In this document: piece after piece, positions 43,108-59,688 of the stretch
How positions within the stretch are numbered: position 1 is the first letter of the stretch
How the letters are laid out: every line of letters starts with the position of its first letter
Made by a program: the position numbers and the translations under genes
Notes under the pieces: generated by a model
What the model saw: only the letters and a program-made list of their open reading frames with translations
The model's database searches: none
What the model was told of the DNA's origin: nothing
Assembly (NCBI RefSeq): GCF_008728855.1
Contig: NZ_CP042906.1
Span: forward strand, 558,001-622,000
Direction of reading: 5' to 3'
Length of the DNA stretch: 64,000 bases
DNA from: Hypericibacter terrae
GTDB lineage: Bacteria > Pseudomonadota > Alphaproteobacteria > Dongiales > Dongiaceae

Positions 43108-44280
43108 ATGAAGCTTTTCCGAAGACTGAGCTATTTGCTGGCTTTGACACCTTTGTTCCTGTCCGGCGCAGCGATGGCCGAGGGCCTGGACGAACTGCCG
43201 CAGGACATCCAGCAGAGCCTCTACAACAAGGACATGCTGGACCCGCAGCAGCCCATCGGGCCGAGTGCCTATCGCGACTGGAAGGCGAAGCGTTCGCCGC
43301 CCTGGACGATCGGTTATGCCAGCTCCTATGCCGGCAATACCTGGCGCGCCATGGCGATGGATCGTCTCCAGAACGAGATCATCCCCAAATGGAAGGCGCT
43401 GGGGCTGCTCAAGGACGTGATCATCACCCAATCGAACCTGAAGGACGCGGTGCAGATCCAGCAGATCCGCCAGCTCGTCGATCAGGGTGTGGATGCGATC
43501 ATCGTCTGCTGCTCCAACCCGACCGCGCTCAACCAGTCGGTCAAATATGCCTATGACAAGGGCGTGCCGGTCTTCTCCTTCACCGGATATCTGACCTCGC
43601 CCTACGCCGTGAATTCCTCGAACAACTACCAGCTGGGCGGTTACCAGGTGGGCAAGGCCCTGACCGATCAACTCGGCGGCACGGGCAATGTCCTGGTGGT
43701 CGAAGGCATTCCCGGCACCTCCGGATCGGATTCGCAGGACCGCGGCATGAAGGCGGGTCTGGCGGCCGCACCGGGCGTCAAGATCGTGGGCGATGTGGCC
43801 GGCATGTGGACCGACCAGATCGGCCAGGCCGAAGTGCAGAAGTGGCTTGCCACGCATCCGGGCCAGTTGGACGGCATCGTCGTCCAGTCGGCGGCCGAGC
43901 TTGGCGTGCTGCGCGCTCTGCAGCAGTCGGGCCGCAAGATGGTGCCGATCACCATCGGCGGCGAATCCGGCGCGCTCTGCTATTGGCGCAAGAATCCGGA
44001 CTATCTCAAGGAGTCCTACCAGCTTTGGCCTCCCGGAGACGATATCGAGCTGATCTGGAACATCATGATGCGGACGCTTCAGGGCCAGGGCCCGAAGATC
44101 CAGTCGGTCCTGGTGAATTCGGTGAAGTTCACCTATGACGACGTGAAGGCTCGTCTCGACGAGAATTGCGACGAGAATTCCGACAAGTGGCAGAATGTCG
44201 GGATCGATAAATGGGGCGGGACGACCTATCTGGATCAGTTCTTCCTGCGCCCGGCCGATCCCGAGAAGTACAAGCCGTAA
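43108..44280 (+). CDS. Sugar ABC transporter substrate-binding protein
   Basis: A 390-aa periplasmic-binding protein of the ribose/galactose type (peripla_BP_4). The signal peptide is MKLFRRLSYLLALTPLFLSG with cleavage near AMAEG. Features include WTIGYASSYAGNTWRAMAMD (first strand), VDAIIVCCSNPTALN and GTGNVLVVEGIPGTSGSDSQ. The strong site GGGAGGTAGGACAAG precedes ATG. It starts an operon with a double ATPase, two permeases and, further on, a rhodopsin. The sugar is not predictable. Confidence 0.94.
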   Translation: MKLFRRLSYLLALTPLFLSGAAMAEGLDELPQDIQQSLYNKDMLDPQQPIGPSAYRDWKAKRSPPWTIGYASSYAGNTWRAMAMDRLQNEIIPKWKALGLLKDVIITQSNLKDAVQIQQIRQLVDQGVDAIIVCCSNPTALNQSVKYAYDKGVPVFSFTGYLTSPYAVNSSNNYQLGGYQVGKALTDQLGGTGNVLVVEGIPGTSGSDSQDRGMKAGLAAAPGVKIVGDVAGMWTDQIGQAEVQKWLATHPGQLDGIVVQSAAELGVLRALQQSGRKMVPITIGGESGALCYWRKNPDYLKESYQLWPPGDDIELIWNIMMRTLQGQGPKIQSVLVNSVKFTYDDVKARLDENCDENSDKWQNVGIDKWGGTTYLDQFFLRPADPEKYKP

Positions 44281-44346: not shown

Positions 44347-46095
44347 ATGTCTTCAACGGCTCACTACGCGTCGGGTCATCAACCGAGCGGTGCCGCCGAG
44401 GAATCCTCGGCGGCACCGCCGGTCTCTGTCACCGGCGACATCACCGTCACCGACGTCCGCAAATCCTTCGGGGTCACCCGGGCGCTCGATGGCTGCAGCT
44501 TCCGCGCGTCGCTGGGCGAGATCCACGCGATCGTTGGCGGCAATGGCTGCGGCAAGAGCACGCTCGCCAAGGTGATGTCGGGGGTGCTCCCGGTCGATTC
44601 CGGCCAGGTCTCGGTCATCGGCCATACGCCGACCTCGCCGCACGAGGCGCGGGCGGCCGGCATCGCCACCGTCTTCCAGGAAGTCCTCGTCGCCGACGAA
44701 TGCTCGGTCGTGGACAATCTCTATCTCGGCGCCGACCGGCTCTGGTCGAAGACCCTGCCGATGAAGGCCAAGATCCGCGACGCCGCCATCATGATGCGGG
44801 AGCTGACCGCCATCGACCTCGATGTCGAGGCGCCGGCCGGCACGCTCCCGCTCAGCATCAAGCAATGGATCACCATCGGCCGGGCCCTGCTGTGGAAGCC
44901 CAAGGTCCTGATCCTCGACGAATCCTCGGCCGCGCTCGATCTCGATTCGACCGAGCGGCTCTTCGCCAAGATGCGCGAGTTGCGCGACCAGGGCTCGGCG
45001 GTCCTGATCGTGACGCACCGGATCGCCGAGCTGATCCGCATCAGCGACCGCGCGACCGTGTTGCGCGACGGGCGCGATGTCGGCGTGCTCAGCAAGGGCG
45101 AGATCACCGAGAAGAACCTGCTGGGCCTCATGACCGGCCGCAGCGAATCGCCGCATATCCCAACCGCGGTGGCGCAGGAAGTGCTGCGCCACGACGTCGT
45201 CATGAAGACTTCCAAGCTAAAGGTCTGGCCGGAGAGCCAGCCGATCGACTTCGCGCTGCATAAGGGCGAGGTGCTGGGCATCGCCGGATTGGACGGGCAG
45301 GGCCAGAGCGACTTCGTGACGGTGCTGGCGGGCGTGCGCCGCGCGGCCGAAGGCCTGCCGATGGTCCGCACCGCCAGCAACGGATTCGCGGAGATCAGGG
45401 GTCTGGCCGAGGCGGCGCAGCATGGCGTCTCCTACGTGTCGGGCGACCGCAAGCGCGAAGGCATCTTCGCGAATATGAGCATCTTCGAGAATCTGCTGAT
45501 GCCGCTCTATCGCCGCACCGCGCGCGCGGGCAAGCTCGCGGTGATCGACTGGAGCAGCCTGACCGCTGTCTTCGACTGGGAGGCCGAGCGGCTCTCGGTG
45601 CGCATGGGCGAGCGGACCAACAAGATCACCTCGCTCAGCGGCGGCAACCAGCAGAAGGTCCTGATCGGGCGCGCCTTCGCCCTCAATCCCGACATCCTGG
45701 TGCTCAACGACCCGGCGCGCGGCGTCGATGTCGGTGCCAAGGCCGAGCTCTACAAGCATCTGACCGCCTTCGCCGAGCGCGGCAAGTCGGTGATCTATCT
45801 CTCGAGCGAGATCGAGGAATTCGTCGGCTTCGCCACCCGCGTCGTCGTGTTCCGCAACGGCAGCATCTTCGACGAGTTCGCCGGCAATGCGATCGAGCCC
45901 GCCAACATCCTCGAGGCGATGTTCGGCCAGCCGCGCGGCTCGCAGCGGCGCATCGATGCGGCACCGGGCGAGCCCAAGGCGGCCCAGGCCAAGGTCGCCG
46001 GGCTCATTCCCGGCAGCGCCGGGCTGCCGCCCTGGATGAGCCGGCGCAATCACCGGGAGCGGGACGCCGGCTCCGAGGGGTCGGGCACAAGATGA
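44347..46095 (+). CDS. Sugar ABC transporter ATP-binding protein (two NBDs)
   Basis: A 582-aa double nucleotide-binding-domain protein of the RbsA/MglA type. NBD1 has Walker A GGNGCGKSTL and Walker B LILDESSAALD, but its signature is degenerate (LPLSIKQWITIGRAL). NBD2 has a modified P-loop region GIAGLDGQGQSDF, as usual in this family, and a good signature LSGGNQQKVLIGRAF with ILVLNDPARGVDVG. The first about 30 residues are a Ser/Ala-rich extension encoded by a strong hairpin. The last 50 residues extend beyond the second domain. It is 66 bp after the binding-protein gene. Confidence 0.94.
   Translation: MSSTAHYASGHQPSGAAEESSAAPPVSVTGDITVTDVRKSFGVTRALDGCSFRASLGEIHAIVGGNGCGKSTLAKVMSGVLPVDSGQVSVIGHTPTSPHEARAAGIATVFQEVLVADECSVVDNLYLGADRLWSKTLPMKAKIRDAAIMMRELTAIDLDVEAPAGTLPLSIKQWITIGRALLWKPKVLILDESSAALDLDSTERLFAKMRELRDQGSAVLIVTHRIAELIRISDRATVLRDGRDVGVLSKGEITEKNLLGLMTGRSESPHIPTAVAQEVLRHDVVMKTSKLKVWPESQPIDFALHKGEVLGIAGLDGQGQSDFVTVLAGVRRAAEGLPMVRTASNGFAEIRGLAEAAQHGVSYVSGDRKREGIFANMSIFENLLMPLYRRTARAGKLAVIDWSSLTAVFDWEAERLSVRMGERTNKITSLSGGNQQKVLIGRAFALNPDILVLNDPARGVDVGAKAELYKHLTAFAERGKSVIYLSSEIEEFVGFATRVVVFRNGSIFDEFAGNAIEPANILEAMFGQPRGSQRRIDAAPGEPKAAQAKVAGLIPGSAGLPPWMSRRNHRERDAGSEGSGTR
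44387..44419 (+). promoter_or_regulatory. Perfect 16-bp hairpin at the start of the ATPase gene
   Basis: GCGGTGCCGCCGAGGA (44387-44402) and TCCTCGGCGGCACCGC (44404-44419) pair perfectly around A44403. It falls within codons 14-25 of the ATPase gene as annotated. It could stabilise the upstream binding-protein mRNA or attenuate downstream transcription, a common way to make more binding protein than ATPase. There is no U tract. Confidence 0.6.
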
Positions 46096-46296: not shown

Positions 46297-46396
46297 ACGA
46301 GATAGAGCGGCGGCGTGAGATCGAAGAAACCTCAACCGGACAGCCCTGGACATCGCGCGCCGATGACGGGCGCTCCATGACGGCGGGGAGGTGGCC

Positions 46397-47821
46397 ATGG
46401 CTGCCACCCCGGTAAGGTCGTCATCGGCGGCGGCCAGTACCTATCTGCTGGTCCCCATCGTCCTCTTCTTCGCGCTGCTGATCGTGGCGGTCCTGCGCAG
46501 CGAGAGCCTGGTCACGGCCAACGGCCTCGGCAGCGCCGTGATCGTGGCGACGCCGCTGATCCTCGCGACCTATGCGCTGATGGCGACGACCATCGCGGGC
46601 CGCGGCACGGTCGATCTGGCGATCGGGCCGCTGCTGGGATTCATCAACGTGACCCTGGTCCAGCTCTTCGGCCAGGACATCATCTCCTCGCCGGTGGCCT
46701 TCTTCCTCTATGCGCTGGGCGTGGGCGTCGCCTATCAGCTCTTCATGGGCCTCATCATCGTCTTCGTGCGGGTGCAGCCGATCATCGTGTCGCTCAGCGG
46801 CTATCTGGCTCTCTCGGGCATCAATCTGGTGATCCTGGAGCGTCCGGGCGGAACGGCGCCGGACTGGATGATGCCCTGGGGGCTCGGCATTTCGATCATC
46901 TCGCCGGTGACGGCGATCCTGATCCTGGCCACGGTCGCCTGGCTGCTCTTCACCCGCACCGCCTTCTACGGCCATCTGAGATTGATGGGCTCGGACGAGC
47001 GCGCGGCCTTCACCAGCGGCGTGCGCATCAACCTGGTGCGGCTGGGCGCTCACTGCATCAGCGGCCTTTTCGCCGGCCTGGCGGCCCTGACCTACACCTC
47101 GCTCATCAGCTCGGGCGATCCGACCCAGGGCACGACCTACACGCTGATCGCGGTGACGGCGCTGGTTCTCGGCGGCGCCAGCCTCGCGGGCGGGCGCGGC
47201 GGCGTCATGGGCTCGCTGCTGGGGGCCGTGAACATCTATCTGATCACCTATGTGCTCGCGACCTTCAATTTCGGCGCGGTGCAGAGCTTCGTGACCGATC
47301 TCGCCTATGGCACGATCCTGGTGCTGTCGCTGCTGCTGACGGTGGTCCTGCCGCATATGCGCGGCGTGGTCCGCAGCGTCTCGCCGTTGCTCTTCTTCGT
47401 GATCCTCTCGCTGGTGGCGCTGGGCGTCATCATCCACGCGACCTACGACTACTCGGCACCGGCGCCGGCCGTGGCGACGACCGCGGCCACCGCGGCCGAC
47501 ACGACGGCGGCCGCGGCGACAACTCCCGCTACGCCGCCACCGAGCTCACCGGCACCGGGATTCATCTTCGAACAGACCGGCGAGGCGGCGGCGATTGCCG
47601 GCGGCGCCAATCTGGCCGGCCCCCTGGCGGTGGCGGGGCTCCTGCTGCTGTCGGTGCTGATCATCCTGCGGACCATGGTGGCGCAGGCCAAGACCGCGCG
47701 GAGCCTGTCGCCGCTGGTCTATGTCGTGGTCGCCGCCTTCATTCTGCTGGGCGTCTATGTGGTCGCCAATCCCGAGACGGTGAGCGGGCTTGGCATCTCC
47801 ACGACCCAGAGCGCGCCCTGA
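46397..47821 (+). CDS. Sugar ABC transporter permease, with low-complexity insert
   Basis: A 474-aa permease of the RbsC/BPD_transp_2 family. The core (about residues 15-345) contains the conserved IAGRGTVDLAIGPLLGF and ITALVLGGASLAGGRGG-like blocks (here VTALVLGGASLAGGRGGVMG). Unusually, after a helix near 345 there is about 40 residues of Ala/Thr/Pro-rich low-complexity sequence and then two extra hydrophobic helices (LAGPLAVAGLLLLSVLIIL and SPLVYVVVAAFILLGVYVVA). ATG 46397 has GGGGAGG upstream. It is longer than the usual about 330 aa. Confidence 0.9.
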   Translation: MAATPVRSSSAAASTYLLVPIVLFFALLIVAVLRSESLVTANGLGSAVIVATPLILATYALMATTIAGRGTVDLAIGPLLGFINVTLVQLFGQDIISSPVAFFLYALGVGVAYQLFMGLIIVFVRVQPIIVSLSGYLALSGINLVILERPGGTAPDWMMPWGLGISIISPVTAILILATVAWLLFTRTAFYGHLRLMGSDERAAFTSGVRINLVRLGAHCISGLFAGLAALTYTSLISSGDPTQGTTYTLIAVTALVLGGASLAGGRGGVMGSLLGAVNIYLITYVLATFNFGAVQSFVTDLAYGTILVLSLLLTVVLPHMRGVVRSVSPLLFFVILSLVALGVIIHATYDYSAPAPAVATTAATAADTTAAAATTPATPPPSSPAPGFIFEQTGEAAAIAGGANLAGPLAVAGLLLLSVLIILRTMVAQAKTARSLSPLVYVVVAAFILLGVYVVANPETVSGLGISTTQSAP

Positions 47822-47840
47822 GCGGTCGGGAGAGCGAGCG

Positions 47841-49238
47841 ATGACATCATCGACCCAGACAGCGCTGAAATGGACCGGGCTCGCGGTCGCCTTCATCGTC
47901 GCCGGCATCGGCCTCATCTTCGGCTTCTATCAGGGCCTGCCGGCGCAGCAGGTGATCCTCTACACCGCCGCGACCTTCGCGCTGGTGGCCTGGGCCTGGC
48001 GCGCCTTCACCTCGCGCTGGGGCGACGGCGCCAAGGCCGCGGTCGTCGTCGAGGGCGTGGATGCCGAGGGCAATCCGGCGCAGTCCTCGGCGAAAGCCGC
48101 GCGGCGCGTCTTCATCCGCAAGAACCGGCCGGTCATCGCCGGGTTGATTCTGCTCCTCCTCGTGTTCGGCATCTGCTCGATCACGATCACGGGCTTCTTC
48201 TCGGTCCTCAACATCATCTCGCTGCTGGTGCTGGTCGGGCTGCTGATCTTCTCCGCCTTCATGAGCAAGTTCGTGGTGGAGAACCGCAGCGCCTTCATCG
48301 GCCTGACCGTGCTGGTGGGCCTCTTCGTCGTCGGGTCGCTCAAGGTCGAGGGCTTCATCTACCCCGCCAACATCAAGTCGATGCTGCTCTTCGCCTCCTT
48401 CCTGGGGCTCGCCTGCGTCGGCCAGACCATGGTGGCGCTCCTCGGCGGCCTCGATCTCTCGATCCCCTTCATCATCGGCTCGGCCAATGTCGCGTTGCTC
48501 TATCTGATCGGGCTCGGCGTTCCGCCCTGGCTCGCCGTCGTCATCATCGTCGTGATCGGCATCGCCATCGGGTTGCTCAACGGATTCCTCAGTTTCAGGC
48601 TCCAGGGGCAGGCGCTGATTCTGACGCTCGGCGTCGGTTTTGCCACCTCCGGCATCACCCAGATCATCACCAGCCTCGGCTCGCGCTTCGCCGGCAATGT
48701 GTTCGGTGCGGTGCCGGAATGGCTCACCAACCTGGCCGCCATGAACGGCCGGACCTTCGGGCTCGACTTTCCGCCGGTGATCCTGATCTGGCTGGTCGTG
48801 GCCGTGTTGCTGATCGTCGGCATGAAGAACACGGTCTATGGCCGCTATCTCTATGCGCTGGGCGGGAACCGGACCTCGGCCTCGCGGCTCTCGATCTCGG
48901 AGCGGCGCTACTGGGTCGGAGCCTATGCCGTCAGCGGCGCGGTCTCGGCCTTGACCGGCTGCCTGCTGCTGGGCTGGAGCGGCGGCGGCTTCATCGGCGT
49001 CGGCCAGCCCTATCTGTTCATGACCCTGGCCGCGGTCGTCATCGGCGGCACCTCGCTTCTGGGCGGGGCCGGCGGCTACGGCTTCACCGTGATCGGCGTG
49101 CTGGTGCTCCAGGTGCTGACCTCGTTCCTGGTCGGCATCGGTCTCGATTATCAATGGCAGCAATTCATTTTCGGCCTGCTGATCCTGCCGATGGTCGCGC
49201 TCTATGCGCGCTCGCCGCATATCCGGACGCAGGTCTAG
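47841..49238 (+). CDS. Sugar ABC transporter permease
   Basis: A 465-aa RbsC-type permease. An N-terminal extension of about 110 residues with two helices (AFIVAGIGLIFGFYQG and a second near 35-55) precedes the core. Conserved blocks are VGQTMVALLGGLDLSIPFII and LAAVVIGGTSLLGGAGGYGF. ATG 47841 follows the previous stop by 19 bp and has GGGAGAGCGAGCG upstream. It pairs with the preceding permease. The rhodopsin gene starts 47 bp later. Confidence 0.93.
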   Translation: MTSSTQTALKWTGLAVAFIVAGIGLIFGFYQGLPAQQVILYTAATFALVAWAWRAFTSRWGDGAKAAVVVEGVDAEGNPAQSSAKAARRVFIRKNRPVIAGLILLLLVFGICSITITGFFSVLNIISLLVLVGLLIFSAFMSKFVVENRSAFIGLTVLVGLFVVGSLKVEGFIYPANIKSMLLFASFLGLACVGQTMVALLGGLDLSIPFIIGSANVALLYLIGLGVPPWLAVVIIVVIGIAIGLLNGFLSFRLQGQALILTLGVGFATSGITQIITSLGSRFAGNVFGAVPEWLTNLAAMNGRTFGLDFPPVILIWLVVAVLLIVGMKNTVYGRYLYALGGNRTSASRLSISERRYWVGAYAVSGAVSALTGCLLLGWSGGGFIGVGQPYLFMTLAAVVIGGTSLLGGAGGYGFTVIGVLVLQVLTSFLVGIGLDYQWQQFIFGLLILPMVALYARSPHIRTQV

Positions 49239-49285: not shown

Positions 49286-49987
49286 ATGGAACTTAAACTG
49301 CTCCAGTCGACCGACATCACCGGCGGGACATTTTCCCTGACCCTGGCCGGCATGTTCGCGACGGCGGTGTTGCTGTTTCTCGGGACCGGGTGGGTCGCGA
49401 AGAAATGGAAGCTCCCGGTGGCGCTCGCCGGCGTCGTGGCCCTGCTCGCCACGGCCTATTACTGGCAGGCGCGCGAGGTGTGGCTGGCCGCCGGCCAGAT
49501 GCCGGTCATCTATCGCTATATCGACTGGCTGATCACCGTCCCGATCCAGGTGCTGACGCTCTATTTCTTCATCGGCGCCGTGGCGCGGCCGCCGGTCGGC
49601 CTGTTCTGGCGCCTCCTGGTCGTCTCCGTCGTCATGATCCTCGCCCGCTATATGGGCGAGGTCGACTTCATGCATCCGACGCTGGGATTCCTCATCGGCA
49701 TCGTCGGCTGGCTCTACATCCTGGGCGAGATCTATTTCGGCAAGCTCGGCGAGATCAATTCCAAGAGCGCCACCGAGACGGTGCAGACCGGCTTCTTCTG
49801 GCTGCGGCTGGTCGTGACCGTCGGCTGGGCGATCTATCCGCTCTGCTATTTCATCGCCAGCTTCGCCGGCGGCGTCGACGAAGGCACCTTGAGCATCGTC
49901 TACAACCTCGCCGACTTCGTGAATCAGATCCTGTTCGGCTTGATCATTCTCTTTGCGGCGATGAAGGAATCGGCTTCGACCCGATGA
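49286..49987 (+). CDS. Microbial (type 1) rhodopsin lacking the Schiff-base lysine
   Basis: A 233-aa seven-helix protein clearly related to proteorhodopsins. Helix C reads YRYIDWLITVPIQVLTLYFF with Arg77, the counterion-type Asp80, Thr84 and, at the proton-donor position, Thr91 (a D-T-T pattern). Gln88 sits at the spectral-tuning site (Leu/Gln105 in proteorhodopsin). YMGE and GWAIYPLCYF are conserved. Helix G is YNLADFVNQILFGLII: Asp210 is kept, but the lysine that binds retinal is Gln214 (codon CAG, 49925-49927). No other Lys lies in helix G except Lys227 at its end, which is a separate conserved residue. It cannot form the normal chromophore. GGGAGG precedes ATG; it is 47 bp after the permease gene. 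Confidence 0.93.
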   Translation: MELKLLQSTDITGGTFSLTLAGMFATAVLLFLGTGWVAKKWKLPVALAGVVALLATAYYWQAREVWLAAGQMPVIYRYIDWLITVPIQVLTLYFFIGAVARPPVGLFWRLLVVSVVMILARYMGEVDFMHPTLGFLIGIVGWLYILGEIYFGKLGEINSKSATETVQTGFFWLRLVVTVGWAIYPLCYFIASFAGGVDEGTLSIVYNLADFVNQILFGLIILFAAMKESASTR

Positions 49988-50128: not shown

Positions 50129-51829
50129 ATGAACGGCGCAAACATCATTGCCATCATCATCTTGGCGACGATCGTCATTGCGGTTGCCGTCTACCTGCTG
50201 CACTGGCTCTACCGGCGATCGACCAAGGACATCTCCTTCGTCCGCACAGGCTTCGGCGGCGAGAAGGTCGTGATGGGCGGCGGCGCCCTGGTGCTGCCGA
50301 TCGTCCATGACGTGACCGAGGTCAGCATGAACACGCTGCGCCTCGAGGTGCGGCGCGCCAAGGAGCAGTCGCTCATCACCAAGGACCGCATGCGCGTCGA
50401 GGTCACGGTCGAGTTCTTCGTCCGCGTCATTCCGCAGCCGGACGCGGTCGCGACCGCAGCCCGCACGCTCGGCCGGCGCACCATGAACCCGGAGAGCCTC
50501 AAGGACCTGGTCCAGGGCCGCTTCGTGGATGCGATGGGCATGGTCGCCGCCACCATGACCATGGAGGAGATGCATGAGCATCGCGGCAAATACATCAAGG
50601 GCGTACGCGACCAGGTGGCGGGCTCCTTGACCCAGAACGGTCTCGAGCTCGAGACCGCGTCGCTCACCAGCCTCGACCAGACCGACATCAAGCTCTTCAA
50701 TCCCTCGAACCAGTTCGACGCCGAGGGCTTGACCCGCCTGACCGAGGAGATCCAGACCCGCAAGAAAAAGCGCAACGACATCGAGCAGGACACGGCGATC
50801 GCGGTCCGCAACAAGAACCTGGAATCCGAGAAGCTGGCGCTGGATATCGACAAGGAGAGCGAATATTCGCGCATGGAGCAGGAGCGCGAGATCGCGATGC
50901 GCCGGGCCCAGCAGCGCGCCGAGATCGCGATCGAGAAGACCGAGCGCGACCGCGAAATCGAGGAAGCCCAGATCCGGGCCTCCGAGGAGATCGAGCGCGC
51001 CCGCATCCGCCAGGAGCGCGTGCTCGAGGCCGAGCGCATCGAACGCGAGCGCGAGACCGAGCGGCTCGAGGTGCAGCGCCGCCGGACCCTCGAGATCGAG
51101 GAGCAGGAGCGCGTCATCGCCGTCGCCACCAAATCGAAGTCCCAGTCCGAGGCACAGGCCGCGGCGGAGCAGGCTCGCTCGCTGATGGTCGAAGCCCAGG
51201 AAAATGTGACCACGATGCGCGAAAAGCAGATTGCGGATCGCCGCAAGCTGATCGAGCTCATCGGGGCGGAGCAGGAGGCGGAACGCGAGGCGATCAAGAT
51301 CGTCACCATGGCCGAGGCCGAGAAAAAGGCCGCCGTGGAGCGCGCCTCGGCCGACAATGCCTCTGCCGATGCCGCCAAGTACCGCTATGAGGTCGATGCC
51401 GAGGGCCAGCGCGCGCTCAACGAGGCTGAAAACCTGCGCTCCGACGCCAGCCGGCGCAGCGCGCTGCATCGCCGCCTGGTCGAGAATCTGCCGGAGATCA
51501 TCCGCGAGAGCGTCAAGCCGATCGAGCGGATCGAATCGATTCGCATCCTGCAGGTCGATGGCCTGCCGGGCCTCAGCAGCACCGGCGCGCTCGACGGTGC
51601 CGGCGGCGGTGGCGGGGATCAGGGCTCGGGCGGCGGCGATGGCGGCGGGCCCAAGGGCCGCAGCCTCGCCGACAGCGCGGTCAATGCCGCACTGCGCTAC
51701 CGGGCCCAGGCGCCCTTCGTCGACGACCTGCTGCAGCAGATCGGGATCTCGGCCGGGTCGGTCGGCAATCTCGGCAATCTGCTGAAGGCGCCGGCGCCGA
51801 AGGATCCGAAGCCGAGTGACAAGGGCTGA
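50129..51829 (+). CDS. Flotillin-family (SPFH) membrane protein, YqiK-like
   Basis: A 566-aa protein with one N-terminal membrane helix (NIIAIIILATIVIAVAVYLL), an SPFH/band 7 domain (about 25-200, with IVHDVTEVSMNTLRLEVRR) and a very long charged coiled coil (about 200-440, Glu/Arg/Lys-rich). A Gly-rich segment (GAGGGGGDQGSGGGDGGG) precedes the C-terminal flotillin-type end. YqiK-like flotillins organise functional membrane microdomains. GGAGGG precedes ATG. A 136-aa membrane protein follows after 81 bp, as YqiJ-type partners often do, though that protein is not YqiJ by length. Confidence 0.92.
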   Translation: MNGANIIAIIILATIVIAVAVYLLHWLYRRSTKDISFVRTGFGGEKVVMGGGALVLPIVHDVTEVSMNTLRLEVRRAKEQSLITKDRMRVEVTVEFFVRVIPQPDAVATAARTLGRRTMNPESLKDLVQGRFVDAMGMVAATMTMEEMHEHRGKYIKGVRDQVAGSLTQNGLELETASLTSLDQTDIKLFNPSNQFDAEGLTRLTEEIQTRKKKRNDIEQDTAIAVRNKNLESEKLALDIDKESEYSRMEQEREIAMRRAQQRAEIAIEKTERDREIEEAQIRASEEIERARIRQERVLEAERIERERETERLEVQRRRTLEIEEQERVIAVATKSKSQSEAQAAAEQARSLMVEAQENVTTMREKQIADRRKLIELIGAEQEAEREAIKIVTMAEAEKKAAVERASADNASADAAKYRYEVDAEGQRALNEAENLRSDASRRSALHRRLVENLPEIIRESVKPIERIESIRILQVDGLPGLSSTGALDGAGGGGGDQGSGGGDGGGPKGRSLADSAVNAALRYRAQAPFVDDLLQQIGISAGSVGNLGNLLKAPAPKDPKPSDKG

Positions 51830-51910: not shown

Positions 51911-52321
51911 ATGATCACCATCAGGCAGACAGAGAGACGGCTCGCCGTCATCGCGAATTGGGGCCTGTTCGGCGCGTTCGGGCTGGGCCTGATCCAGTCG
52001 GGCATCGGCAGCGGTGCGGTCGTCGTCGGCCTCGTCGGCTTCGCGCTCATTCTCGTGGGCTTCGTCTCGCAGGTGATCATCAACCGCTTCTATGGCGGCG
52101 GCTTCACGGCCGGCGAGGTGGCGCTGGGCTTCATCGCCTTCGGCATCGCGGTTTTAGGATTCGTCGCGAGCTGGATCTTCGATCCGACCTTCGGCACCAC
52201 CGACATCGTGATCGGCCTCTCGGGCTTTGCCGCCATCATCATCGCCTTCATCGCCTATCTCGTGACGAAATACGGGCTGAAGGGCTCCTTCTCGATGTTC
52301 CACCAGATGGGTCGCCATTGA
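51911..52321 (+). CDS. Four-helix membrane protein (136 aa)
   Basis: A 136-aa integral membrane protein with about four hydrophobic segments arranged as two similar halves: IANWGLFGAFGLGLIQSG / GLVGFALILVGFVSQVIINR, and LGFIAFGIAVLGFVASWIFD / GLSGFAAIIIAFIAYLVTK. The N-terminal half starts TIRQTERRLAVIANW. I recognise no characterised family. It directly follows the flotillin gene, suggesting a partner role. Confidence 0.75.
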   Translation: MITIRQTERRLAVIANWGLFGAFGLGLIQSGIGSGAVVVGLVGFALILVGFVSQVIINRFYGGGFTAGEVALGFIAFGIAVLGFVASWIFDPTFGTTDIVIGLSGFAAIIIAFIAYLVTKYGLKGSFSMFHQMGRH

Positions 52322-52402: not shown

Positions 52403-54448
52403 TTGTCTGAAGGAGTCGTGTGGCTGCTCGCCTTCGTCGGGGCCTATTGGGCCTATTGCGTCTATTGGGGTGCGGCCAGCGCGCGCCTGATCGGCACGAC
52501 CGCCAACGACTATTTCCTGGCCGACCGCGGCATCTCGCCCTGGATCTTCGTGCTGGCGGCGACCGCGACCTCCTTTTCGGGGTGGGTCTTCCTCGGCCAT
52601 CCGAGCTTCATCCTCCAGGACGGATTCCAGTTCGCGCAGCTCTCGCTCTGCGCCATCACCATCCCGCTGACCGGCGTCATGTTCCTCAAGCGCCAATGGC
52701 TCCTGGGCAAGCGCTTCGGCTATGTCACGCCGGGCGACATGTTCGCCGACTATTTCGGCAGCGAGGGCATGCGCCGGCTGGTCGTGCTGATCGCGCTGGT
52801 GTTCTCAATCCCGTTCCTCGCCATGCAACTGACCGCCTCGGGTTATCTGCTCCAGATCCTCTCCGACGGCGAGGTCGATCGCCATGTGGCGATGTGGGTC
52901 CTGACCGCGGTGCTGTTCCTCTATGTCTGCGTCGGGGGCTTACGCGCGGTCGCCTATGTCGGGACCTTGCAGGGGCTGCTGATGGTGGCCGGTCTCGCCG
53001 CGATCGGTCTGGTCGCCTATGGCAGGCTCGGCGGCTTCGCGACCTTCAACGACGCGCTCGCCAAGCTGGGCGCCGGCGCGATCGCGCCCTTCGGCAGCAC
53101 GGCCGCCGGCTACAACAGCTATTTCGAGATCCCGGGCGTGATCCAGTTCACCCGCGGGCTCGGTATCGAGGCGCCGGTCGGCGGCACCTGGACCGCCTCC
53201 ATGATCCTCAGCTACAGCTTCGCGCTGATGGGGATCCAGGCGGCGCCGGCCTTCACCCTCTGGGCCTTCGCCAGCCGCAGCGCCAAGGGCTTCGCCGCGC
53301 AGCAGGTCTGGGCCTCGGCCGCGGTGATCGGGCTGATCCTCGTCTTCTTCTCGGTCCTGATCGGCATGGGTGCGCTCTTCCTCGGCGCCTCGCCGGCGGT
53401 GACGGCAGCCGGTCTCGCCGTCGCCGATTGGTTGCCGCCGATCGCGAGCCAGGACCCGGGCAATCTGGTCGCCTTCTTCATCCGCGCGATCGGCAAGAGC
53501 GATCCCTGGTTCACCGGCCTGCTCGCAGTCTGCGCGCTCGCCGCGATCCAGGCGATGATCGCCTTCTATGCCTCGACCGCCGGCACGATCCTCGCGCGCG
53601 ATGTCTATAAGCGTTATCTCAATCCGGAGGCCGGCGATCGCGAGCTCAAGCTCTATGGCCGGATCAGCATCGGGCTGGTGCTGCTGGCAGCCCTCCTCAC
53701 CGCCTCCTACCTGCCGGCGACCGAAAGCGAACTCGGCGCGCTGGCGCTTTCCTTCGGCTTCCAGCTCTGGCCGGCGCTGGCCGCCGTCTGCTGGTTCCCC
53801 TGGCTGACGCGCCAGGGCGTGGTGCTGGGGCTGGCGTTGGGGCTGGTGGCCGTGGTCTTCACCGAGCCCTTCGGCCAGTCGCTCAGCGCCTTCGTCGGGC
53901 TCCATCTGCCCTGGGGCCGCTGGCCCTGGACCATCCATTCGGCCGGCTGGGGCATGTTCTTCAATCTGCTGGCCTGCCTCATCGTCTCGGCCATGACGCA
54001 AGGCGGCGCCGAGCGGGCGCATCGCGGCAAGTATCATGACTATCTCGCCGAGAAGGCGGGGCTCTCGCCCGAGCGGCGCCTGCTGCGGCCCGCGGCCTGG
54101 GCGATCGCGCTCGCCTGGATCTTCTTCGCGGTCGGTCCGGGCGCCGTCTGGGGCAATGATTTCTTCGGCGCGCCGAATGGCGGGGTCGCCGCCTGGGTGC
54201 TGGGCCTGCCCTCGATCTGGGCCTGGCAGATTCTGTGGTGGGCGCTGGGCGTGCTGGTGATCTGGTTCCTGGCCTACAAAATGGGCATGTCCACGGCACC
54301 GCTCGGCAGCGTCGATACCCATATCAATTACAATCCGCCGGCCTTGTCGCGACAGGCGCTGGCGTCGGATTGGCGCAACTGGTTCTGGGGGCTCGTGATC
54401 GGCTTGGCGGTGCTCACCCTCGCGCATTGGATCTTCGGACGGGCGTGA
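52403..54448 (+). CDS. Sodium:solute symporter (SSS family)
   Basis: A 681-aa, about 13-14-helix transporter of the SSS family (PutP/PanF-like fold). Recognisable elements are the N-terminal NDYFLADRGISPWIFVLAAT and SGWVFLGHPSFI, GYVTPGDMFADYFGS, and the sodium-site helix near IQAMIAFYASTAGTILARDV. It is longer than PutP (about 500 aa); the extra length is at the C-terminus after AAWAIALAWIFFAV-like helices. The start is TTG at 52403 with GGGGAGGG upstream. The substrate is not predictable. The alcohol dehydrogenase gene is 28 bp downstream and may be co-transcribed. Confidence 0.9.
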   Translation: MSEGVVWLLAFVGAYWAYCVYWGAASARLIGTTANDYFLADRGISPWIFVLAATATSFSGWVFLGHPSFILQDGFQFAQLSLCAITIPLTGVMFLKRQWLLGKRFGYVTPGDMFADYFGSEGMRRLVVLIALVFSIPFLAMQLTASGYLLQILSDGEVDRHVAMWVLTAVLFLYVCVGGLRAVAYVGTLQGLLMVAGLAAIGLVAYGRLGGFATFNDALAKLGAGAIAPFGSTAAGYNSYFEIPGVIQFTRGLGIEAPVGGTWTASMILSYSFALMGIQAAPAFTLWAFASRSAKGFAAQQVWASAAVIGLILVFFSVLIGMGALFLGASPAVTAAGLAVADWLPPIASQDPGNLVAFFIRAIGKSDPWFTGLLAVCALAAIQAMIAFYASTAGTILARDVYKRYLNPEAGDRELKLYGRISIGLVLLAALLTASYLPATESELGALALSFGFQLWPALAAVCWFPWLTRQGVVLGLALGLVAVVFTEPFGQSLSAFVGLHLPWGRWPWTIHSAGWGMFFNLLACLIVSAMTQGGAERAHRGKYHDYLAEKAGLSPERRLLRPAAWAIALAWIFFAVGPGAVWGNDFFGAPNGGVAAWVLGLPSIWAWQILWWALGVLVIWFLAYKMGMSTAPLGSVDTHINYNPPALSRQALASDWRNWFWGLVIGLAVLTLAHWIFGRA

Positions 54449-54476: not shown

Positions 54477-55634
54477 ATGACCGCATTCAATTTCAATACC
54501 GCGCCCCGGATCGTCTTCGGCGACGGCGCCATCGCCCGCATCGGCGAGATCGCGGCGGCCCAACTCGGCAAGCGCGTGCTGCTGGTCACCGATCCCGGTC
54601 TCATCAAGGTTGGATTGATCGACCCGGCCCTGAAATCGCTCGAGGCCGCGGGCGTCGCCGTGTCGGTCTATTCCAAGGTCGAGGCCGATCCGCCCGAGGC
54701 GGTGATCATGACCTGCGTTTCGGCGGCGCAGGAATTCGAGGCGGACGCGGTGATCGGCTTGGGCGGCGGCTCCTCCATGGACAGCGCCAAGCTCGCGGCC
54801 CTGCTGGCGCCGGGCCGGGAGAAGCTCGCCGACATCTATGGCATCGGCAATGCGAAGGGGCCGCGCCTGCCGCTGCTGCTGGCACCCACCACGGCCGGCA
54901 CCGGCTCCGAGGTCACGCCGATCTCGATCGTCACCACCGGCGCCAGCGAGAAGAAGGGCGTGGTCACGCCCCTGATCCTTCCCGACGTGGCGCTGCTCGA
55001 TCCGGAGCTGACGCTGGGCCTGCCGCCGCATGTGACCGCGGCGACCGGCATCGACGCGATGGTCCATGCGATCGAGGCCTTCGCCTCGGCCAGCCCCAGC
55101 AACAATCCGGTCTCGCGCGCCCTGGCGCGGGAAGCGCTGCGGCTGATGGGGGCGGCATTGGAGCGTGCGGTCAAGAATGGCAAGGATCGCGCCGCGCGCG
55201 GCGACATGCTGCTGGGCGCCATGCTGGCGGGCCAGGCCTTCGCCAATTCGCCGGTGGCGGCGGTCCATGCGCTGGCCTATCCGATCGGCGGCCATTTCCA
55301 TGTGCCGCACGGGCTCTCCAACGCCCTGATGCTGCCCCATGTGCTGCGCTTCAACGCCGAGACGGCGAGTGCGGCCTATGCCGAGATCGCGCCCTATGCG
55401 TTCCCGGAGCTGGCGGAGGTCGGCACGCAAGGGCGGGCCTCGGCCTTCGCCGAGAAGCTCGCCGGGCTCTCGGTGCGCTGCGGGCTGGAGCAGCGCCTGC
55501 GCGATGTCGGCATCCCCAAGGACGCCGTCCCCATGCTGGCGCGGGACGCGATGAAGCAGACGCGCCTGCTGGTCAACAATCCGCGCGCCGTGACCGAAGC
55601 CGACGCGCTCGCCATCTATCAGCAGGCTTGGTGA
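54477..55634 (+). CDS. Iron-containing alcohol dehydrogenase
   Basis: A 385-aa group III metal-dependent alcohol dehydrogenase. The NAD-binding GLGGGSSMDSAKL motif is near residue 100 and TTAGTGSEVTPISIV follows. Metal ligands Asp and His lie in GIDAMVHAIEAFAS, SPVAAVHALAYPIGGHFHVP and the HGLSNALMLPHVL block. AAAGGAGG precedes ATG 54477. It probably oxidises a short or functionalised alcohol. It follows the SSS symporter closely, so one could supply the other's substrate; this is inference. Confidence 0.95.
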   Translation: MTAFNFNTAPRIVFGDGAIARIGEIAAAQLGKRVLLVTDPGLIKVGLIDPALKSLEAAGVAVSVYSKVEADPPEAVIMTCVSAAQEFEADAVIGLGGGSSMDSAKLAALLAPGREKLADIYGIGNAKGPRLPLLLAPTTAGTGSEVTPISIVTTGASEKKGVVTPLILPDVALLDPELTLGLPPHVTAATGIDAMVHAIEAFASASPSNNPVSRALAREALRLMGAALERAVKNGKDRAARGDMLLGAMLAGQAFANSPVAAVHALAYPIGGHFHVPHGLSNALMLPHVLRFNAETASAAYAEIAPYAFPELAEVGTQGRASAFAEKLAGLSVRCGLEQRLRDVGIPKDAVPMLARDAMKQTRLLVNNPRAVTEADALAIYQQAW

Positions 55635-56690: not shown

Positions 56691-57545
56691 ATGGCAAAAC
56701 ACTCGCCAGTCACCGGCCGCTACGTCACGATCGAAGTCGACGGCCTGGAATACAAGGTCTTCTATCTCCATAATGGCCAGGGCCAGCCGCTGGTCTGCCA
56801 GCACACCGCGGGCTGCCATAACCATCAGTGGCGCGGGCTGCTCGAGGACGAGGAGATCACCAAGAACTACAACGTGATCGCCTATGACCTCGCCCGCCAC
56901 GGCAAGTCCGATCCCCCGCTCAACAGCGAGTGGTGGAAGTCGGAGTACAAGCTCACGGCCGACCATTATGTGAACTTCATCGTGAAGTTCTGCGACGCGC
57001 TCGAGCTCAAGAACCCGATCTTCATGGGCTCCTCCTTCGGCGGCAACGTCGCGCTGCAGCTCGCGCTGCGCCGCCCCGACCGCTTCAAGGCGGTGATTCC
57101 GGTCGAGGCCGCCGACTACGCACCGGGCTTCTTCCTCGACTGGTGGCGTCATCCTCATGCCAATGCGGCGCAGGTTTGCGCCAGCGGCGTGTGGGACCTG
57201 ATGGCGCCGCAGTCGCCCGAGATGGATCGCTGGCTGACCTGGCACTATTACACGCAAGGTTCGGAGGCCTTCAAAGGCGACCTCTATTTCTATTCGGTCG
57301 ATCACGACCTGCGGAAGCAGCTGGCCGACATCGACGGCAAGCGCTGCCCCGTCGTCATGATGACCGGCACCTACGACTATCTGACGCCGCCCGACGCGAC
57401 CGAGAACACGGCGCGCCAGATCAAGAACGGCGTCTATATCGAGATGACCGACATCGGCCATTTCCCGATGAGCGAGAACTACCCGCTGTTCCGGACCTAC
57501 CTCAAGGAAGCCTTGAGGATCATCCGCGAACGGACTGGCGACTGA
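56691..57545 (+). CDS. Alpha/beta hydrolase
   Basis: A 284-aa alpha/beta-hydrolase. The nucleophile elbow is FMGSSFGGNVALQ (Ser near residue 112), the acid is probably the Asp in MMTGTYDYLTPP, and the His is in TDIGHFPMSENYP. The oxyanion region reads QHTAGCHNHQWRG, where the usual HG is replaced by HTAGC. Cap residues FLDWWRHPHA are aromatic-rich. It lies between the SCP2-like and metallo-beta-lactamase genes. The substrate is unknown; an ester or lactone is plausible. Confidence 0.9.
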   Translation: MAKHSPVTGRYVTIEVDGLEYKVFYLHNGQGQPLVCQHTAGCHNHQWRGLLEDEEITKNYNVIAYDLARHGKSDPPLNSEWWKSEYKLTADHYVNFIVKFCDALELKNPIFMGSSFGGNVALQLALRRPDRFKAVIPVEAADYAPGFFLDWWRHPHANAAQVCASGVWDLMAPQSPEMDRWLTWHYYTQGSEAFKGDLYFYSVDHDLRKQLADIDGKRCPVVMMTGTYDYLTPPDATENTARQIKNGVYIEMTDIGHFPMSENYPLFRTYLKEALRIIRERTGD

Positions 57546-57595: not shown

Positions 57596-58687
57596 ATGAA
57601 GATCATCGAGTTCGGCAAGGACGGCGGCAGCAGCAAGAGCACCGCCAGGGATCGTCCGGAGCGGATGAAGATCCTCGAGTTCGGCGACGGGGTGCGTGGC
57701 GCAAGGCCGCCCTCGGGCTCGAAGATCGAGGTCAGGCCGGCCTCGACGGCTCCGCAGGCCGAGACGAAATGGGAGCCGGTGCCGGCACCCGCCTCCAGCG
57801 CCGGCTTGGCGGCCGTGCCGAAAACGAAGGCGTCACGGAGTCCCTTCGTCGGCTCCCGGTCGCTCAAGATGCATGTGCTCGACCTGGGCAAGCTGCGCCT
57901 CGACAAGAACTTCATGGTCGCGAACTCGACCGTGGCGATGGCCAAGAACCCGAACCCGCCGGGCAAGCTGATCGACATCCCGGTCTCGGCCTATTACATC
58001 GAGCATCCCGACGGCAACGTCCTGTTCGACACCGGCTGCCATCCCGACTGGGCAGGCCCCAACGGCCGCTGGCCGCAGAACCTGCAGGATGTGTTCCCGG
58101 TGATCGGGCCGGACGACTGCTATCTGCCGCACCGGCTGGAGGCGATGGGCATCGGGCCGAACCAGATCCGCCACGTGGTGCTGTCGCATCTCCATTGCGA
58201 TCATGCCGGCTGCATCGAGTTCTTCCGCAAGTCGAACATCGTTGTGCATGAGGACGAGTTCGCGGCAGCGGCCACGCACTACGCGAAGCGCGACCACAGC
58301 ACGCCCTATGCGCTGCGGGACGTCGAGACCTGGATCCGTCTCGACCTCAATTGGCGCGAGGTCGGCCGCGCGGAGCCGGACCGCAACCTCGTCGACGGAG
58401 TGAAGCTGCTCAATCTCGGCGCTGGCCATTCCTTCGGCATGCTGGGGATGATGGTGTCCCTGCGCGACCACGCGAATGTGATCCTGGCGTCGGACGCCTG
58501 CTACACCGCGGAGAATTACGGGCCGCCGATGAAGCCCGCGGGCATCAGCTACGATTCCATCGGTGCCGCCCGCACGATCCAGCGGATCCGCTCGATGGCG
58601 GAAGCGAATCACGCCGAGGTCTGGTTCGGTCACGACATTCCGCAGTTCGAATCGCTGCGGAAGGCGTCGGAGGGCTGGTACGAGTGA
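57596..58687 (+). CDS. Lactonase-type metallo-beta-lactamase-fold hydrolase with N-terminal extension
   Basis: A 363-aa protein whose C-terminal about 270 residues resemble N-acyl-homoserine lactonases (AiiA/AttM group). Metal ligands are His198, His200, Asp202 and His203 in LSHLHCDHAG, His278 in GAGHSF, Asp300 in ASDACY, and a His in WFGHDIP. The first about 91 residues are an unusual low-complexity extension containing MKIIEFG at residue 1 and MKILEFG at residue 24. A Met at residue 92 (MHVLDLGKLRLDKNFMV) would give a normal-length lactonase, so the start is uncertain. It may degrade a signalling or other lactone; this is not proven. Confidence 0.88.
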   Translation: MKIIEFGKDGGSSKSTARDRPERMKILEFGDGVRGARPPSGSKIEVRPASTAPQAETKWEPVPAPASSAGLAAVPKTKASRSPFVGSRSLKMHVLDLGKLRLDKNFMVANSTVAMAKNPNPPGKLIDIPVSAYYIEHPDGNVLFDTGCHPDWAGPNGRWPQNLQDVFPVIGPDDCYLPHRLEAMGIGPNQIRHVVLSHLHCDHAGCIEFFRKSNIVVHEDEFAAAATHYAKRDHSTPYALRDVETWIRLDLNWREVGRAEPDRNLVDGVKLLNLGAGHSFGMLGMMVSLRDHANVILASDACYTAENYGPPMKPAGISYDSIGAARTIQRIRSMAEANHAEVWFGHDIPQFESLRKASEGWYE

Positions 58688-58848
58688 CGGCGCCGTCCGG
58701 GCCGGGGGGCCGGGATCGGCGGTTTCATTTGAGGAGTCGGGAGATCATGCGGCGACGGGAATGGGGATAAGCGGGCAGAGCCGGGTTGAGTGAAGGGGAC
58801 GCCCGAGAACGCCGCGTTGGCGGAAGGGGCGATCCGGGGGAATCTCAA

Positions 58849-59688
58849 GTGCGCGGGTATATCTTGCCGGAATTCGGATCGAAGAAGCAGCTCACCAAAC
58901 TGCCCATCGGCGTCGGCGAAAAGGGCGTTCCCGCCCTCATTCGCGGCAGCCGGGTGCTCGATGCCGTGGTCGCGTCGGACCAGCCTCTGACGGTCTCGGA
59001 TCTGGCGCGGAAATTGAACCTGCCCAAGAGCACGGTTCACGGGCTCTGCGGCACCCTGGTCGATCTGGGGCTGCTCTCCAGGCGCAACGGCAACTCCTTC
59101 CTGATCGGGCCGCATGTCATGCGCTGGGCCAACGCGTTCCTGGCTCAGACCGATCTGACCGCCGAGTTCTCTTCGCTCTGGGACAGCCTCACTGTCCTCT
59201 CCGACGAGACCATCACGCTCTCCGTGCTCGACGGCTCGGAGGTGGTCTATATCGCCTGCCGCAACAGTTCTTCGTCGCTCGGCATCACCTTCCGGATCGG
59301 CATGCGGCTGCCCGCGCCCTTCACAGCCACCGGCAAGGCGATCCTGAGTACCATGTCGGACGCGCAGGTGCGCAAGCTCCTGGCCGGTCACTGGCCGCAG
59401 CCCCTGACCTCGCGCAGCGTCAAGAATATCGAGGGTCTGATGGCGGAGCTCGCCGACTGCCGGCGCCGCGGCTTCTCGATCGACGACGGCCAGACGCGCG
59501 ACGGCATGTATTGCTTCGGCACGGCCGTGCGCGATTCCTCGAACCAGGTGGTGGCGGGCGTCGCCGTCAGCCTGCTGGCGACGCGCGTCGATGACCGCAC
59601 CACCGATCTCGCGGCCAAGAGCATCCAGACCATCGCCCATCAGCTCTCGGTGCGCCTCGGCGCCGACATGAAGAAGCTGCCGGCCTGA
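58849..59688 (+). CDS. IclR-family transcriptional regulator
   Basis: An approximately 279-aa IclR-type regulator. The winged helix-turn-helix is RGSRVLDAVVASDQPLTVSD with LARKLNLPKSTVHGLCGTL, and the effector domain contains FRIGMRLPAPFTATGKAILS and the GFSIDDGQTRDGMYCFG block. GTG 58849 with GGGGGAA upstream is chosen; TTG 58786 is a longer alternative. It follows the hydrolase cluster and converges with the DddP-like gene, either of which it could control. Confidence 0.92.
   Translation: MRGYILPEFGSKKQLTKLPIGVGEKGVPALIRGSRVLDAVVASDQPLTVSDLARKLNLPKSTVHGLCGTLVDLGLLSRRNGNSFLIGPHVMRWANAFLAQTDLTAEFSSLWDSLTVLSDETITLSVLDGSEVVYIACRNSSSSLGITFRIGMRLPAPFTATGKAILSTMSDAQVRKLLAGHWPQPLTSRSVKNIEGLMAELADCRRRGFSIDDGQTRDGMYCFGTAVRDSSNQVVAGVAVSLLATRVDDRTTDLAAKSIQTIAHQLSVRLGADMKKLPA

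Follow-up and report, generated by a model that had tools for sequence, protein, structure and literature searches.

A flotillin-associated rhodopsin without the retinal-binding lysine, encoded beside an extended ABC permease in Hypericibacter terrae

Introduction

What does a microbial rhodopsin do once it has lost the lysine to which retinal is attached, and why would a bacterium keep it? The question is raised by a gene of Hypericibacter terrae that lies in the 64,000-nucleotide stretch analyzed here (the window; positions 558,001 to 622,000 of contig NZ_CP042906.1). Opsins without this lysine were the subject of a 2016 paper (PMC4915679). Flotillin-associated rhodopsins (FArhodopsins) were published as a family in 2023 (Haro-Moreno et al., 2023; PMC10308929), in a text that already mentions freshwater metagenome members with Q, T, L, or R instead of lysine. 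The family itself was already known; what is new here is evidence on its origin, its host range, and its likely partner.

Results

A maintained rhodopsin gene with glutamine at the Schiff-base position

The 702-bp ORF at 49286–49987 (plus strand) begins with ATG, is preceded by GGGAGG, and encodes a full-length bacteriorhodopsin-family protein of 233 amino acids that matches the Pfam Bac_rhodopsin profile with an E value of 2.7e-30 (106 bits; cut-off 24.6). Its GC content by codon position (57/40/89%) fits a coding frame within a window of 66% GC. Helix G reads YNLADFVNQILFG, and codon 214 (49925–49927, plus strand), at the position of the retinal Schiff-base lysine, is CAG (Gln). Alignments to four solved chains (Med12 proteorhodopsin, 4jq6, and PDB entries 9r21, 9r22, and 9r23) run through the helix G region without a gap and pair Gln214 with the lysines of PsFAR and of Med12 proteorhodopsin, so misalignment of the site is ruled out. 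The initial annotation was thus right that the lysine is absent and that no normal covalent chromophore can form. It had also listed Arg77, Asp80, Thr84, and Asp210 as kept, and all four are present.

The protein combines the seven-helix bacteriorhodopsin fold and the family profile of type-1 rhodopsins (Pfam and predicted model) with loss of their helix-G lysine. Its helix C motif is Asp80-Thr84-Thr91, that is, DTT; light-driven proton pumps have DTE with a carboxylate donor, and residue 91 here is Thr, not Glu. The predicted model (mean pLDDT 76.7, from an alignment of 16 rows), which is too coarse for the cavity, best matches PsFAR (VIA Z 23.5–23.7, TM 0.82–0.84, 3.0 Å over 226 residues, approximately 41% identity). 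For pocket positions we relied on reference sites that we take to be the retinal-pocket residues of bacteriorhodopsin.

Could the glutamine be a private mutation or an assembly error? The orthologue from the same genus is 88% identical and also carries Gln at 214, and that of Tistlia consotensis is 82% identical and carries Arg. Together with the clade-wide non-Lys state described below, the congener's glutamine rules out both explanations, and with them the refuting case that the initial annotation had foreseen, in which all close relatives would carry Lys. By the NG86 method, dN/dS is 0.20 (0.071/0.345) against the congener and 0.24 (0.111/0.467) against Tistlia, close to the values of 0.24 and 0.25 for the neighboring permease 2 in the same two comparisons. 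The gene is under purifying selection, and its earlier description as maintained is borne out. Among 41 lysine-less rows of our alignment, 41 positions are at least 95% conserved, and Trp81, Trp142, Trp181, Tyr184, and Pro185 are nearly invariant. Although the family's hallmark residue has been lost, gene decay or an error in the sequence is scarcely credible given this conservation, the low dN/dS, and the lysine-less relatives.

The rhodopsin belongs to the known FArhodopsin family

The next gene downstream, on the same strand (50129–51829, plus), directly adjoins the rhodopsin and encodes a flotillin with SPFH and Flot domains (Flot, E value 2.2e-34; Band_7, E value 1.2e-14); the rhodopsin is therefore a FArhodopsin. 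The initial annotation missed this neighbor and hence the family, published in 2023 (PMC10308929). The other features set out in that text are also found here: a clade separate within or next to the proteorhodopsins (47 rows on one side of a branch of our 63-row tree, support 100/99), a helix C motif other than DTE, and a cluster shared with a sodium symporter, an iron-dependent alcohol dehydrogenase, and an alpha/beta hydrolase (PMC10308929, section 14). The best solved matches to the window rhodopsin are PDB entries named flotillin-associated rhodopsin. Because PMC10308929 describes the same arrangement along with freshwater lysine-less members, we assign the window rhodopsin to this family.

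The window gene differs from the FArhodopsins of that paper, as far as its text describes them, in four respects. Its host genome, at 5.9 Mb, is not streamlined; a single rhodopsin and thus no proteorhodopsin partner was found there (a proton-pumping proteorhodopsin elsewhere in the genome has been reported for marine SAGs but does not define the family); the cluster includes a complete sugar-type ABC importer with extended permeases; and residue 121 is Arg. The main text of PMC10308929 contains none of the terms soil, Rhizobi, and Tistlia. Among open-licence papers, we found FArhodopsin only in two, both from 2023, and none that linked Rhizobiaceae, bacteriorhodopsin, and flotillin. Rh-noK of betaproteobacteria is also a type-1 rhodopsin without lysine, but it is related to xanthorhodopsins and stands in tandem with a working rhodopsin gene (PMC10308929), neither of which holds for the only rhodopsin gene of this genome.

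Loss of the lysine maps to one event

Searches of genomes for rhodopsin genes gave matches in 2 of 17 genomes of the order (both of the window's genus), 35 of 385 of the class, 9 of 398 of the phylum, 4 of 61 of the order of Tistlia, and 27 of 394 and 19 of 397 in two families, and plasmid records gave 8 of 72,556. In a search of genome contigs, the best 80 of 566 matches were Tistlia and 79 Pelagibacteraceae loci; as these 79 have both the lysine and Glu at position 91, they are proteorhodopsins and were rejected as FArhodopsins, and few named FArhodopsins therefore came from that scan. The resulting FArhodopsin set consists of 46 loci and the window (n = 47), each with the rhodopsin beside a flotillin gene. 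Most are from genomes of the window's class, with Tistlia, Martelella, Hoeflea, Pararhizobium, and Shinella as named hosts; freshwater metagenome, SAR11, and gammaproteobacterial FArhodopsins lie outside the set. The tree was built with column 214 excluded and contains 12 proteorhodopsins, chosen from roughly a hundred found, and xanthorhodopsin-type rows as the outgroup, on which the direction of changes rests. Copies (L082, L127) and distant matches (L143, L144, L152, L153, L189–L199) were left out.

At position 214, the 47 FArhodopsins have Arg (29), Leu (10), Lys (6), or Gln (2), and all 12 proteorhodopsin and 4 xanthorhodopsin-type rows have Lys. The 41 lysine-less FArhodopsins form one group (100/100); the six with Lys fall outside it, with weak grouping of their own (90/33). 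The tree requires a single change from Lys to another residue, a single change to Arg121, and a single loss of Asp80. Loss of the lysine among these 47 sequences thus maps to one event, along with fixation of Arg121. In the window this residue is encoded by CGC (49646–49648, plus strand). It is present in 41/41 lysine-less rows and 0/22 others: the six FArhodopsins with Lys have Ala (4) or Gly (2), and the 12 proteorhodopsins and 4 xanthorhodopsin-type rows all have Gly. The claim of the initial annotation that the retinal-pocket segments are kept is consequently only partly true.

Of the 41 lysine-less rows, 38 have lost Asp80, the three exceptions being the window, its congener, and Tistlia; 30 have a changed Arg77, and 11 retain it. 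The relative order of losses is Lys with Arg121, followed by Asp80, with Arg77 changed in those 30 rows. The window gene, in which Arg77, Asp80, and Thr84 are all kept, represents an early stage. The congener also has a second, divergent FArhodopsin cluster (L128; C1:935000-954999) that includes a separate importer, hydrolase, flotillin, and symporter and whose rhodopsin is 38% identical and has Leu at 214 and Gly in place of Asp80.

The closest solved structures offer a view of position 121. PDB entry 9r21 is wild-type PsFAR, and 9r23 is a cryo-EM structure of its H84V/E120G double mutant; E120 aligns with Arg121 and H84 with Val85 of the window rhodopsin. PsFAR differs in keeping the lysine and in having Glu where the window rhodopsin has Arg121. 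From the entry titles, we infer that the depositors of 9r23 meant to reopen the pocket, and Arg121 probably fills part of the cavity. No paper on PsFAR was found among open-licence papers.

Retinal supply in the host genomes

The window genome is a single contig of 5,894,118 bases (99.65% complete). A Pfam model search of three genomes found no second PF01036 protein in it or in Tistlia, and in the congener found only the second lysine-less FArhodopsin; for the remaining hosts, a single rhodopsin rests on one match per genome, often with only 7 candidates scored. The initial annotation saw no blh gene in the window, and a PF15461 search that used proteorhodopsin genomes as positive controls found none in the whole genome. 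The same search found blh in 11/16 proteorhodopsin genomes, in 2/2 genomes that carry both rhodopsins (two 1.4-Mb genomes with a DNI motif, which we call HIMB59-like), and in 1/40 FArhodopsin hosts without a proteorhodopsin match, the sole case (G1316) being a partial match of 309 bases. It found blh in none of the four hosts, a subset of these 40, whose FArhodopsin keeps the lysine. Because blh is also missing from 5 of the 16 proteorhodopsin genomes, its absence alone is no proof. The window genome has one RPE65-family carotenoid-oxygenase-like gene (G000:C1:4838390-4839685), which scores below the curated cut-offs for named activities, and four matches to the squalene/phytoene-synthase family. 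Two of these are within about 2.4 kb of each other, presumably the paired arrangement of hopanoid synthesis.

Because four lines of evidence (the missing lysine, Arg121, the missing blh, and the later loss of Asp80 in relatives) point to loss of retinal use, the prediction that this rhodopsin is retinal-free is well supported, and it probably binds no retinal in vivo.

The rhodopsin lies between an extended ABC permease and a flotillin

Which proteins might such a rhodopsin serve? Upstream on the same strand are genes for a periplasmic substrate-binding protein of a sugar-type ABC importer (43108–44280; Peripla_BP_4), an importer ATPase with two ABC stretches (44347–46095; Pfam), and two permeases, both recognized by Pfam and examined by hydropathy count. 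Permease 1 (46391–47821; 476 amino acids) has a C-terminal extension. Permease 2 (47790–49238, the start being uncertain and probably slightly downstream; 482 amino acids) has an N-terminal membrane extension and is directly upstream of the rhodopsin. Beyond the flotillin gene, also on the plus strand, follow a small hydrophobic protein of 136 amino acids (51911–52321) that has no Pfam match and is conserved in most of the clusters compared, a sodium:solute symporter of the SSS family (52403–54448; SSF, E value 1.1e-27), and an iron-containing alcohol dehydrogenase (54477–55634) that scores below all curated cut-offs and whose 4-hydroxybutyrate-type role is a guess. An alpha/beta hydrolase (56691–57545; Pfam and cluster comparison), a metallo-beta-lactamase-fold lactonase-like protein related to AhlS/AttM (57596–58687; below curated cut-offs), and an IclR-family regulator (58786–59688; profile match) complete the series on this strand.

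The order permease 2, rhodopsin, flotillin, on one strand, recurs in 45 of the 46 other loci and in the window (46/47); the contig of the exception (L185) ends before permease 2. Neither flotillin nor permease 2 adjoins any of the listed proteorhodopsin or xanthorhodopsin-type rows. Matches to the binding protein, the ATPase, both permeases, the hydrolase, and the symporter are all present in the 12 other clusters with 16–29 kb of sequence. In three f65 genomes whose rhodopsin keeps the lysine, the symporter is encoded on the opposite strand, past the gene for the binding protein. Among the 12 other clusters, hydrolase identity is 81–97% in 10 and about 46% in the two second-type clusters, L128 and L137.

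Comparison with importers that have no rhodopsin points to the permease extensions. Plasmids of Agrobacterium and Rhizobium tropici carry a related importer, with permease 2 60–62% identical over the shared part and a hydrolase and succinate-semialdehyde dehydrogenase nearby; the stretch shown includes neither a flotillin nor a rhodopsin. Measured as stop-to-stop frames, with segments taken from a simple hydropathy count, the permeases of these sisters have 330–343 amino acids and 7–8 hydrophobic segments, compared to at least 463 amino acids and 10–19 segments in 13 FArhodopsin clusters. Neither of these two rhodopsin-free transporters has the C-terminal extension of permease 1. Among 222 plasmid records with a match to permease 2, at least 80% of the query is covered in six, the same six that carry a FArhodopsin (38.8–52.8% identical to that of the window); the other two plasmid records with a rhodopsin are from Polymorphobacter, at 26.5%. 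The six are few and include three near copies: two from Martelella, one labelled Dysgonomonadaceae, and one each from Hoeflea, Pararhizobium, and Shinella. When plasmids were searched with the permease 2 extension alone, only Hoeflea matched (E value 1e-5); the presence of an extension is better conserved than its sequence. In the clusters L129–L133, whose rhodopsin keeps the lysine, the permease 1 frame has 759–816 amino acids, far more than in the window, with 18–19 hydrophobic segments in four clusters and 10 in L131.

Possible resemblance of the cluster to a lactone degradation module

By analogy, the cluster resembles a module for uptake and degradation of gamma-butyrolactone or 4-hydroxybutyrate. 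The blcABC (attKLM) operon of Agrobacterium converts gamma-butyrolactone to succinate (PMC3907764). Enzymes of these kinds occur in the Martelella FArhodopsin cluster, where an AttM lactonase and a succinate-semialdehyde dehydrogenase both score above the curated cut-offs (415 against 390 bits and 696 against 646 bits, respectively) and are accompanied by an iron-containing alcohol dehydrogenase and an IclR regulator. In contrast to this full set, the window has the IclR regulator, and its lactonase-like protein and alcohol dehydrogenase are both below the cut-offs. The repressor of blcABC is of the IclR family, and the middle step from gamma-butyrolactone to succinate is carried out by an iron-containing alcohol dehydrogenase. 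To our knowledge, blcABC includes no rhodopsin or flotillin.

Compared to solved structures, the alpha/beta hydrolase matched only generic hydrolases, with E values of 4e-9 or weaker. The hydrolase also occurs, at 76–77% identity, beside an aldehyde dehydrogenase on Rhodococcus plasmids (L138, L139), where there is no match to the importer or the rhodopsin. Beside the FArhodopsin cluster of the window is an M24-family protein (59713–60942, minus strand); among NCBIfam models, it scores highest with that of the DMSP lyase DddP, at 329 bits against a cut-off of 600.

Discussion

What might a rhodopsin without retinal contribute to these clusters? The explanation that we regard as best, although our confidence in it is evenly balanced, is that it is a retinal-free, light-independent membrane subunit of a flotillin-organized importer. 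This lysine-less FArhodopsin would work without retinal or light, as a seven-helix membrane protein retained to serve the importer of its own gene cluster in a dedicated accessory or scaffolding role. By linking the flotillin of the cluster with the additional membrane segments of the ABC permeases, it may place the importer, and probably also the sodium symporter, in a flotillin membrane domain. The operon would then import and degrade a small compound, such as a lactone, an ester, or a hydroxy acid, by a route like that for gamma-butyrolactone or 4-hydroxybutyrate; this substrate assignment is predicted from the gene content. Contact with the permease is suggested by gene order and the shared presence of the permease extensions, and contact with flotillin would likewise be expected. 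The initial annotation had proposed several roles, including sensor, retinal or carotenoid carrier, and light-independent channel; its interpretation is partly supported, with "a subunit for the neighboring transporter" the best supported by gene order and the shared extensions. Several points count against the subunit. The kept Arg77, Asp80, Thr84, and Asp210 and the near-invariant Trp, Tyr, and Pro residues would also suit a core that binds something; the missing blh is not decisive, and the genome has an RPE65-family oxygenase; the permease extensions vary in sequence; the lactonase-like protein and the alcohol dehydrogenase score below the cut-offs; and other candidate partners are the symporter and the small hydrophobic protein.

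More tentatively, we envision that an ABC importer acquired the rhodopsin fold as a lasting subunit that needs no light, and that its permeases gained segments together with the rhodopsin and flotillin. The lysine and later the counter-ion Asp would then have been lost, with Arg121 plugging the retinal site and the window gene preserving an early stage.

It is also conceivable, if unlikely, that the protein is a chemosensor: a small molecule, which might be the imported compound itself, would bind within the seven helices in the space left by retinal, and the protein would signal in a GPCR-like manner to the importer, flotillin, or a kinase. This idea, raised in section 17 of PMC10308929, would account for the conservation of the core aromatic residues and the Asp210 site, and the FAR cluster of Pseudothioglobus is reported to encode a hybrid sensor kinase along with a LuxR regulator (PMC10308929, section 14). 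However, no kinase, receiver, or transducer is present among the scanned genes of the window cluster or the annotated stretches of three plasmid clusters, and the side chain of Arg121 would probably occupy some of the proposed binding site. Less probable still is that the rhodopsin modulates the sodium:solute symporter and not the ABC importer. The symporter is co-conserved, and its matches of at least 80% coverage are on the same six plasmid records as FArhodopsin, but the direct neighbor in 46/47 loci is permease 2, and the displaced symporter of the three f65 genomes also counts against this reading.

Might light still be sensed or used, through retinal or a carotenoid held non-covalently? 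The four polar residues and the aromatic cage kept in the window copy, and the RPE65-family oxygenase, would be compatible with such binding, but we consider it improbable in view of Arg121, the fate of Asp80 in most lysine-less relatives, and the genome's lack of a blh match. For marine forms, help to a proton-pumping proteorhodopsin in a mixed complex has been hypothesized (PMC10308929), since marine hosts always had both (section 18 of that paper), as do the two HIMB59-like genomes; with no other rhodopsin in the window genome or Tistlia and only a lysine-less one in the congener, such a role is unlikely for the window genome, as far as its record is complete, and as an account of this protein has very little in its favor.

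Our preferred reading, of a light-independent importer subunit, offers a specific partner that can be tested, the extended ABC permease, and the findings in the window host disfavor, for this host, the published idea that such proteins assist a proteorhodopsin (PMC10308929). Lysine-less FArhodopsins also occur in genomes of large size, and plasmids that carry them belong to named Rhizobiales isolates, in which gene deletions are practicable. One of the plasmid records, CP070278.1 (246,192 bp), labelled Dysgonomonadaceae bacterium zrk40, has the same matches and the same sample type as NZ_CP066788.1 of Martelella lutilitoris (246,197 bp) and was perhaps mislabelled or derived from a mixed culture.
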